Assembly (NCBI GenBank): GCA_913064945.1
Contig: CAJYAN010000019.1
Location: forward strand, 1 to 39,178
Reading direction: 5' to 3'
DNA: 39,178 nt
Origin: an uncultured Gammaproteobacteria bacterium
GTDB lineage: Bacteria > Pseudomonadota > Gammaproteobacteria > UBA6429 > Thiohalophilaceae
A model generated the notes under the pieces. The model saw only the letters and a program-made list of their open reading frames with translations. It had not been told where the DNA came from and did not search any database. The position numbers were made by a program, and so were the translations under genes. Positions 38,049-39,158 of the stretch are shown one piece after another (the stretch's first letter is position 1; each line of letters opens with the position of its first letter).

Positions 38049-38125
38049 CGGGGCATAGCGCAGTCTGGTAGCGCGCCTGCTTTGGGAGCAGGATGTCGGG
38101 AGTTCGAATCTCTCTGCCCCGACCA
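38049..38125 (+). tRNA. tRNA-Pro (anticodon TGG)
   Basis: A 77-nt cloverleaf with encoded CCA. The acceptor stem CGGGGCA pairs with TGCCCCG, the anticodon arm is CCTGCTTTGGGAGCAGG with TGG in the loop, and the T-arm is GGGAGTTCGAATCTCTC. It follows a strong promoter and probably shares a transcript with tRNA-Arg downstream. Confidence 0.97.
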
Positions 38126-38282
38126 TATAGAGATAGTGCCAAGGGATGAGGCGCTAGTAACGAGGAAGGGCAAGGCAATCGAACTCCCGACGTAATCGAT
38201 CAGGCAGTTCGACAAGTTGCCGCTAAAATACAGGTACTAGGTACTAGATGCTATGCCTAGGAATTATGACCATGAAGAGATG
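38126..38282 (+). other. tRNA-Pro/tRNA-Arg spacer with inverted T-arm copy and heptads
   Basis: The spacer holds TCGAACTCCCGAC (38179-38191), the reverse complement of the tRNA-Pro T-arm segment 38095-38107, starting 53 bp after CCA. It also holds degenerate seven-base units (GGGATGA GGCGCTA GTAACGA, near 38142) and two GTACTAG units near 38232, the same heptad as the 8001-8100 array. No gene or separate promoter for tRNA-Arg is evident. Confidence 0.7.
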
Positions 38283-38317
38283 GCGCCCGTAGCTCAGCCG
38301 GATAGAGCAACGGCCTT

Positions 38318-39007
38318 TAAGGGTGGCTTTAAGCCACCATGTGGAGCCTCTACAGGGAAACAAAACTTGTAGAGTGGACTGCACTATATCGGGGAAACCT
38401 TAACAGTCAGGCTGATGGCAATCCCGAGGAAACCTGTGGATTTCCTGCTTTTGTGATAGCATCTCTTCAATTTTTTTAGATGAGGCATGGATGCGACGTC
38501 ATACAAAAGATAAGGGAGACCTAGGTGTTTTGAAGGCTCAAGTGAGTCTTTATGAGCAGGGTCATTGCATTCTTCTGCCGTTAACGGAGCATGCGCCATT
38601 TGACCTGCTGGTTTATAAAGACAATGACTTCAGAAGGGTTCAGGTAAAATAGTAAGGCATTAGACAAGAATGGCATTTTGAGGATCAAATTCCGTTCTTG
38701 CTGGGCAGACAAAAATGGCACGCATATGCGGCCGGTAGACAAGCAGCGTGGTGATTTGTATTGTCTATATTGTCCGGATACGGATGCATGCTATTTTCTA
38801 GACTCGGAAGAATTTGATAAGTCAGTAAACCTGAGGGTAGAAACACCTAAGAATAATCAAAGGCAGCATATAAAGTTTGCCGTTGACTATCGCAGGGTTC
38901 CGTAGAGGCCATACGTGCAGCACCTGAAACGGTGAAGAGATGGTCCAGACCACAAACAAGATGAATCTAAACCTGATTCTCTCGGCAGTGAAAACTGTAG
39001 TGGTAAG
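38318..39007 (+). ncRNA. group I self-splicing intron in the tRNA-Arg anticodon loop
   Basis: This 690-nt intron follows a 5' exon ending in T and itself ends in G, as group I requires. Visible pairings: a hairpin GGTGGC/GCCACC (38322-38338), P2-like CTCTACA/TGTAGAG (38348-38354 with 38368-38374), P3 CTGCAC/GTGCAG (38379-38384 with 38915-38920), P4 CGGGG/TCCCG (38390-38394 with 38422-38426), P7 GGCCAT/ATGGTCC (38907-38912 with 38940-38946, one bulge), and P8 CACC/GGTG (38921-38924 with 38931-38934). The segment after P4 (AAACC...ATGGCAA) resembles the Azoarcus tRNA-Ile intron, pointing to subgroup IC3. A broken homing endonuclease frame is inserted between P4 and P7. Confidence 0.93.
38491..38905 (+). 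pseudogene. frameshifted PD-(D/E)XK homing endonuclease of the intron
   Basis: Two adjoining frames together resemble the roughly 140-residue group I intron PD-(D/E)XK endonucleases (I-Ssp6803I-like; Pfam PDDEXK_5). The first (38491-38652, 53 codons, GAGG upstream of ATG) has KGDLGVLKAQ, APFDLL (catalytic Asp) and RRVQVK (Q-x-K), then stops at TAG. The second, shifted frame continues SKALDKNGILRIKFRS, WADKNGTHMRPVDK, LYCLYCPDTDACYFLD to a TAG at 38903-38905. The break is at about 38650, best explained by loss of two bases (expected QVKYSKA). The stop lies inside the conserved intron R region. A mature nuclease is unlikely. Confidence 0.87.
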
Positions 39008-39101
39008 CTAAGCCGTAGGTCGCAGGTTCGAATCCTGCCGGGCGCGCCAAACATTGAAAGAACACTGTCGTCTCCTCTGGGCACGGCAGATAAAAGTACT
39101 T

Positions 39102-39158
39102 TTCGAACCTGCGACGAAATAAATTCAGCAGGTTTGACCAATCGGCAGCGCCGATTGG
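39102..39158. repeat. inverted tRNA-Arg T-arm copy and strong hairpin
   Basis: TTCGAACCTGCGAC (39102-39115) is the reverse complement of tRNA-Arg bases 39019-39032 and begins 53 bp after CCA. Next lies a perfect 9-bp hairpin CCAATCGGC/GCCGATTGG with a three-base loop (39138-39158). The latter may be a transcription terminator without a T-run, or an end of a repeat running out of the window. Confidence 0.65.

Follow-up and report, generated by a model that had tools for sequence, protein, structure and literature searches.

A putative group I intron with a broken homing endonuclease gene in the tRNA-Arg(UCU) gene of an uncultured gammaproteobacterium

Group I introns are found in the anticodon loop of tRNA-Ile(CAU), tRNA-fMet and tRNA-Arg(CCU), those of tRNA-fMet and tRNA-Arg(CCU) at loop positions different from that of the intron described here. 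The tRNA-Leu(UAA) introns of cyanobacteria and plastids resemble it in lying between positions 34 and 35 and in having an internal guide sequence (IGS) that reads C32-U33-U34. I-Ssp6803I (PDB 2OST) is the homing endonuclease of the Synechocystis tRNA-fMet intron. The free-standing enzyme SegB belongs to the GIY-YIG family and is not known to be connected with any family of introns. The available part of PMC8450103 names the tRNA-fMet intron of PCC 6803, that of PMC4033280 names cyanobacteria, alphaproteobacteria and betaproteobacteria as carriers of group I introns in tRNA genes, and that of PMC13096335 describes SegB of phage T6 as a free-standing homing endonuclease adjoining phage tRNA genes. 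In a 2014 review (PMC3984707, available to us in part), section 12 describes collaborative homing, in which an intron and a free-standing nuclease converge on a single conserved gene, and places the union of intron and endonuclease among the most intriguing questions about mobile introns, while section 11 sees little evidence of intron movement between distant bacteria. In the open-access literature searched we came across no group I intron of a bacterial tRNA-Arg(UCU), and none is named in the available parts of PMC3984707, PMC11835236, PMC8450103, PMC4033280, PMC4013482, PMC6125680, PMC13096335 and PMC3943268; an organelle tRNA-Arg(UCU) intron is not excluded and priority remains unsettled.

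We have analyzed a stretch of 39,178 nt (the window), one of the 22 contigs (C19) that make up a draft genome of 3.21 Mb. It contains a tRNA-Arg(UCU) gene split in two, with the following arrangement:

38049-38125, + strand: neighbouring tRNA-Pro(UGG); the order Pro-Arg(UCU)-His is also found in relatives
38283-38317, + strand: tRNA-Arg(UCU) exon 1, nucleotides 1-34 (35 nt)
38318-39007, + strand: putative group I intron, 690 nt, its last base the terminal G (ARAGORN and covariance model)
39008-39049, + strand: tRNA-Arg(UCU) exon 2, nucleotides 35-76 including CCA (42 nt)

The insert lies between U34 and C35. ARAGORN run without introns did not detect the split tRNA-Arg(UCU) in the window; when introns of 150-900 nt were allowed, it reported tRNA-Arg(tct) with a 690-nt intron after base 35 at identical coordinates. 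The joined exons, read by eye, give a 77-nt tRNA-Arg(UCU) in which all arms are fully paired. The first-pass annotation of this DNA had proposed that a group I intron splits the anticodon of this tRNA, that excising 38318-39007 gives a perfect 77-nt molecule, and that P3, P4, P7, P8 and the terminal G are readable. The first proposal is borne out by the ARAGORN coordinates together with a covariance model of the family, the joined exons confirm the second with the coordinates exact, and all the elements listed in the third are present. Its likening of the 34/35 insertion to that of tRNA-Leu(UAA) was also right, gammaproteobacterial Leu(UAA) introns with the same site being found by the UCU-intron model. 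As to the nature of the insert, the group I intron stood, but a homing endonuclease pseudogene inside it had been overlooked. The structure that we assign to the intron is as follows:

38315-38317, + strand: 5' side of P1, C32-U33-U34, with U34 opposite the G of the IGS (exon 1 ends in CTT in 104 of 104 introns)
38321-38338, + strand: hairpin inside the P1 loop
38344-38346, + strand: IGS GAG inside the conserved GGAGCC (GGAGCN in 102 of 104 introns)
38348-38374, + strand: P2 hairpin
38379-38388, + strand: 5' strand of P3, which has a single bulged base and a single A-C mismatch
38389-38427, + strand: P4-P5, with covariation in relatives
38389-38393 with 38423-38427, + strand: P4 strands
38398-38406 with 38412-38418, + strand: P5 strands
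38428-38901, + strand: P6, with the endonuclease pseudogene in its loop
38907-38911, + strand: P7 5' strand
38912-38920, + strand: P3 3' strand
38921-38934, + strand: P8 hairpin
38941-38945, + strand: P7 3' strand
38947-39006, + strand: P9 region, two hairpins closed by GACCAC...GUGGU, an ending conserved in relatives

The hallmarks of group I introns are found in the window: the IGS at 38344-38346 pairs with 38315-38317, there is a U-G pair at the 5' splice site, and a G stands at 39007. This final G was found in all 104 introns compared, although for 99 of them the search pattern itself required the G and the CTAA that follows. It seems that only the loop bases C32-U33-U34, and not the stem, are read by the guide GAG, since introns in tRNAs altered at anticodon-stem bases 30 and 31, such as those of Exiguobacterium, have the same guide as the others; a P1 that uses the anticodon stem is ruled out on the same grounds.

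For the core we used a covariance model (R1) made from 24 endonuclease-free introns of relatives, with the window excluded and the core structure written by hand. In these training introns 98.9% of 720 cells were paired and 9 of the 30 pairs had changes on both sides; in slid-partner controls on the same 24 introns pairing fell to 30.7-41.8%. R1 matched the window in two halves with the ORF between them, at 38373-38505 (54.1 bits) and 38750-38958 (61.2 bits), the E values of the core halves being 2e-15 and 1.7e-13, and gave no further match in the 39-kb window up to E 10. A covariance model of a single tRNA family leans towards its own structure. In an archaeal intron the model match is likewise split at a large P6 insertion (PMC6125680, available in part). 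All the pairs of the window core form except one A-C in P3, which is probably tolerated since the P3 spelling ACTATA is also present in relatives. Energy-only folds, which cannot represent the P3/P7 pseudoknot, recovered P2, P4, P5, P6 and P8 and neither P3 nor P7 when the ORF region was omitted, and P2 only when the whole locus was folded.

A match to the Rfam model RF00028, named in the first-pass annotation as a check, is absent from the window at the curated threshold. This does not refute the intron, because of the 12 further UCU-intron loci that were scanned 11 are missed as well: only L098 among the 13 (window included) passes the Rfam threshold, which is a detection limit and not a defining trait of group I introns. 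RF00028 does find a second group I intron of the same genome (91.4 bits; L001 1453-1795, minus strand, core at G000:C5:124613-124883), in a gene labelled Gln by ARAGORN that by our reading encodes tRNA-Ile(CAU); here the interruption follows the anticodon and is thus at another loop position than the UCU intron. Both the tRNA-Arg(UCU) and its intron escape a tRNA scan without introns and this Rfam model.

Splicing is inferred to proceed by attack of an exogenous guanosine, which would cut after U34, followed by attack of exon 1 after the terminal G of the intron, and the product would be the mature tRNA-Arg(UCU) for AGA codons. An intact second tRNA-Arg(UCU), which according to the first-pass annotation would count against the intron, was sought in the draft genome by ARAGORN reading and with an intact-UCU pattern, and was not found. 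The 36 other tRNA genes read by ARAGORN around the tRNA hits of the genome included the Arg anticodons ACG, CCG and CCU. The missing pattern match is weak evidence, since the pattern found a gene in 41 of the 56 gammaproteobacterial genomes searched and none in 15 (that of the window and 14 others), and a further UCU gene could be absent from the assembly, given that this is a draft in 22 contigs with the gene near a contig end. The 22 window ORFs chosen by length use AGA in 27 of 8,854 codons. As no other tRNA-Arg(UCU) was found and AGA codons are used, splicing is probably needed for AGA decoding, an inference from a draft genome without RNA data; if the sole tRNA-Arg(UCU) gene found needs ribozyme splicing, AGA decoding would depend on an RNA catalyst. 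The split gene might instead be a dead tRNA carrying a fossil intron, with another gene reading AGA, which would suit the draft state of the assembly and the broken endonuclease gene. We hold this to be very improbable, because no such gene was found, pairing is perfect in both exons, and over 124 columns the core has 99% identity with the one in a different genus (G036).

Within the family of the window, the intron is present in 9 of the 40 genomes, counting that of the window; another 14 show an uninterrupted gene at the loci fetched, which leaves 17 unresolved. G032 was counted from the 3' part only, which adjoins a run of N. Scanning named genomes with a pattern for the 3' junction gave at least 117 loci, at least 99 of them with a same-site insertion and a matching exon 1, and in the latter the exons were 202-697 nt apart. 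Eighteen loci were dropped before counting, 17 without an exon 1 reaching the score and L149, which was unparsed; L057, L078, L087 and L127 lie at the end of the available stretch, and the rest of the 17 are apparent chance matches or intact tRNAs, with L071 unresolved. By group there were at least 66 loci in Gammaproteobacteria, at least 17 in Bacilli and at least three in other Pseudomonadota, at least four in gammaproteobacterial symbionts without a listed phylum, at least two each in Bacteroidota, Rhodothermota and Thermodesulfobacteriota, and at least one each in Campylobacterota, Chloroflexota and Myxococcota. Many of them are MAGs, in which taxon labels can be wrong, and stem statistics from the scan are biased because the pattern fixes C41-G42. 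The first-pass annotation had known of no well-described case in tRNA-Arg(UCU) of a gammaproteobacterium; this agrees with the literature searched, but the case is not isolated, the same-site insertions spanning at least eight named phyla. In an even sample of 274 gammaproteobacterial genomes the UCU-intron model had matches in 41, and of the 30 loci fetched from these ARAGORN called 13 tRNA-Arg(UCU) and 8 tRNA-Leu(UAA). The labels Gln, Ser and Pyl that ARAGORN gives to some introns (L001, L017, L018, L244) are frame ambiguities and were overridden by exon reading. The insert of the window is thus not a matter of chance, since the same tRNA-Arg(UCU) site is interrupted in the scanned loci and in the family genomes, and a model made without the window matches both halves of its core. 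We are highly confident that a group I intron here separates positions 34 and 35 of tRNA-Arg(UCU), self-splicing being inferred from sequence in the absence of RNA data.

The tree of 65 cores was based on 144 columns of an alignment fitted to the UCU model and has long branches. In it 40 of the 42 UCU introns are set apart by a branch supported at 100/99, and it is by this core branch of its own, by the different host tRNA and by the PF11645 endonuclease gene, intact or broken, in 25 of its 104 introns that the UCU family differs from the tRNA-Leu(UAA) introns. The UCU intron of Halothiobacillus groups with Leu(UAA) introns (87/82), outside the main branch, and that of Desulfogranum lies outside it too. 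A core from Bacteroidota groups with those of Bacilli (96/88), and one from Desulfobacterales with two of gammaproteobacteria (97/90). On the positions of these cross-phylum and outlying cores, the UCU family would probably have moved between phyla, and the tree points to at least one putative separate colonisation of the tRNA-Arg(UCU) site, perhaps from tRNA-Leu(UAA), which also has CUU. The core tree adds evidence of intron movement between distant bacteria.

The pseudogene in the P6 loop consists of these parts:

38491-38905, + strand: homing endonuclease pseudogene, PF11645, in two frames
38491-38649, + strand: frame one (P0002), with tandem stops after the VQVK motif; PF11645 at 50.8 bits
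38651-38902, + strand: frame two (P0003), with its stop at 38903-38905; PF11645 at 56.2 bits

The curated cut-off of PF11645 is 26.1 bits. The ORF is of the I-Ssp6803I type, a PD-(D/E)XK homing endonuclease, and is broken by a frameshift directly after the VQVK motif, which has the putative catalytic lysine. By length the 104 UCU introns fall into a short class (79 introns, 202-524 nt) and a long one (25 introns, 629-697 nt). In the long ones the ORF lies in the P6 loop, and its last codons with the stop, GTTCCGTAG in 22 of the 25, are inside the conserved core; the gene is full-length in 23, truncated in L092 and frameshifted in the window. Remnants of it were found in 9 of 80 short introns, one of them weak. 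The gene is rare, with matches in 6 of 369 gammaproteobacterial genomes, that of the window included. All of the 24 intron-borne relatives aligned match PF11645, and a profile of such relatives finds I-Ssp6803I (2OST) at E 7e-5. The structure predicted for the intact relative L140 (pLDDT 86.5) has 2OST as its best match (TM 0.81/0.75, E 7e-10), this comparison being based on L140 and not on the window copy. The PD-(D/E)XK fold is common to both enzymes, whereas I-Ssp6803I has only about 22% identity and another tRNA target, and relatives of the window gene are also found free-standing beside intact tRNA-Arg(UCU) genes.

The endonuclease gene could still be alive if the frameshift were an assembly error, or if it were bypassed by a shift at the stop codon: there is a single frame break, each half scores above 50 bits to PF11645, and by our reading the window retains 24 of the 26 columns that are invariant in 24 relatives, one of the two changes, Y101 to F, being also found in an intact free-standing copy (G008). 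The other change affects P104, which G008 keeps, and the frame break itself is unusual, as the frame is full-length in 23 of the remaining 24 long introns; besides, the intron whose core is nearest to that of the window, in G036, retains the gene only as a remnant. A live gene is on this balance quite doubtful, and the intact gene expected of a mobile intron is lacking in the window, where the frame is broken. We prefer to see in this copy what looks like a mobility gene in decay with the ribozyme kept, as far as can be read from its sequence. With its P6-loop gene broken the intron is probably past its mobile phase: it would be fixed and, as a mobile element, in decay, with the ribozyme probably retained because the tRNA is needed.

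Two other intron loci may be recorded here. The Exiguobacterium introns L055 and L103 have matching ends (70 and 62 bases), one being 632 nt long with the endonuclease gene and the other 284 nt without it, which makes them a natural pair for homing. In L267 (G396:C9), an intron with an intact endonuclease gene lies at 1395-1964 with its tRNA exons partly deleted; exon 1 is missing and a sequence like the T-arm of tRNA-Pro is joined, either a dead copy or a chimeric assembly.

The endonuclease is also found without the intron. The chromosome of G008, from the same family as the window, has an intact copy of 138 codons between tRNA-Pro(UGG) and an uninterrupted tRNA-Arg(UCU), and this copy is the nearest to that of the window among the 42 proteins in the tree (69% identity). 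In another gammaproteobacterium (G126) a divergent copy occupies the corresponding position, its stop falling inside the start of the intact tRNA-Arg(UCU), so that in two chromosomes the free-standing gene directly flanks this tRNA. Both carriers lack the usual CGGC stem. The idea that changed anticodon stems protect such carriers was unsupported, the CGGC stem being also absent in 9 of 41 intact gammaproteobacterial tRNAs, and G012 having the stem change of G008, yet no endonuclease match at the locus.

Among viral contigs, 16 loci encode relatives of the endonuclease. An intron core was sought at the free-standing loci and was absent in 15 of the 16 viral loci and in L011, L269 and L260, with a match of only 11.5 bits in L261. 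Twelve of the viral loci adjoin an intact tRNA-Arg(UCU), one of them (L244) labelled otherwise by ARAGORN. Of 24 matching phage records 5 were examined: tRNA-Arg(tct) lies upstream of the endonuclease by 68 nt in Synechococcus phage Sf-FR1 and by 22 nt in Acinetobacter phage Herod, while three carry distant PD-(D/E)XK relatives, near tRNA-Ser(GCU) in Streptomyces phage Bartholomune, with Ala(CGC) as the nearest tRNA in Haloarcula tailed virus 2, and with no annotated tRNA within 2.5 kb in Enterococcus phage EFP01. A search of plasmid vectors gave no match. In one viral-labelled contig (L258) the tRNA-Arg(UCU) at 40-749, near one end of the stretch, contains an intron whose endonuclease frame is broken; this may be the border of a prophage and not an intron carried by a phage.

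We compared the phage loci with the expectation from local tRNA counts, using 13 distinct loci from which the near-copies L250, L252, L251 and L259, the intron-type L258 and the three distant phages had been left out, and to which Sf-FR1 and Herod had been added. UCU was directly flanking in 10 of them and the nearest tRNA in 9, versus 2.8 expected (P 8e-5); this P is too small, since the phage loci are related and not fully independent, and with the three distant phages counted as misses UCU is flanking in 10 of 16. The adjacency could follow merely from phage tRNA clusters that collect endonuclease genes, with no target in common with the intron, a reading to which the distant relatives near Ser(GCU) and Ala(CGC) tRNAs, the lack of an annotated tRNA around the gene of EFP01, and L256, where Thr and Val are nearer than UCU, all lend some weight. 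It has to face the excess of UCU neighbours (with the reservation that kinship is ignored and the distant phages are uncounted), the fact that two of the four loci without UCU nearest are beside tRNA-Arg(CCU) and tRNA-Arg(ACG), the same arrangement in two chromosomes, and the intron-borne members of the same protein clade in tRNA-Arg(UCU) itself; we think it unlikely, although it deserves more weight than a live endonuclease in the window. As the endonuclease occurs without the intron beside intact tRNA-Arg(UCU) in phages and in two chromosomes, intron and endonuclease probably have this tRNA gene as a common target, with cleavage inferred and shown for no member.

In the endonuclease tree a free-standing phage copy pairs with an intron copy from Rhodothermota (96/90), and the intron label must have changed at least twice to fit the supported branches, the deep forks being weak. 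The best account is that intron and endonuclease have parted or joined more than once, the direction of the joins being inferred. The situation resembles collaborative homing, in so far as the analogy can be drawn with both cleavage and splicing inferred: a free-standing gene beside the target of the intron is found at 10 of the 13 phage loci and in two chromosomes. In the case described for two phages (PMC3984707, in the part available) the setting is different, since here the gene is a tRNA gene found in chromosomes and phages, and cleavage has not been shown. Taken together, we give a probability of roughly 45% to the reading that the anticodon arm of tRNA-Arg(UCU) is shared as a target by two selfish elements which unite and separate, namely an intron that reads only CUU and crosses phyla and an I-Ssp6803I-type nuclease that moves independently. 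If true, it would exemplify, at a tRNA gene, the route proposed for the assembly and disassembly of mobile introns, with phages as carriers; a bolder extension is that the phage nuclease cuts the tRNA-Arg(UCU) gene of the host or of a rival while the phage supplies a resistant copy. The UCU family spans at least eight named phyla, its endonuclease gene is intact, broken or missing, and free-standing copies are found at the same tRNA; this makes the union of intron and endonuclease testable at one small locus.

Some minor observations were made around these genes. In three genomes of the family (L029, L030, L031) an intact tRNA-Arg(UCU), placed after tRNA-Pro or before tRNA-His, has a different acceptor stem, GTCCCGG, like that of Bacillus L135, and a tRNA replacement is possible from these sequences. 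In the window, exact inverted copies of the T-arm of 13-14 nt are found at 38179-38191 and 39102-39115, about 52 nt after each own tRNA gene, and form a hairpin with a further partial copy. Such copies follow 2 of the 38 tRNA genes scanned in the genome, the other 36 sharing 7 nt or less; at related loci they reach at least 10 nt in 18 of 427 tRNA genes and at least 13 nt in 7, and are often followed by other palindromes. Finally, at the contig end (39113-39178, minus strand) there is a weak match to the Pseudomon-groES RNA (RF01721), with 27 bits against a threshold of 50.
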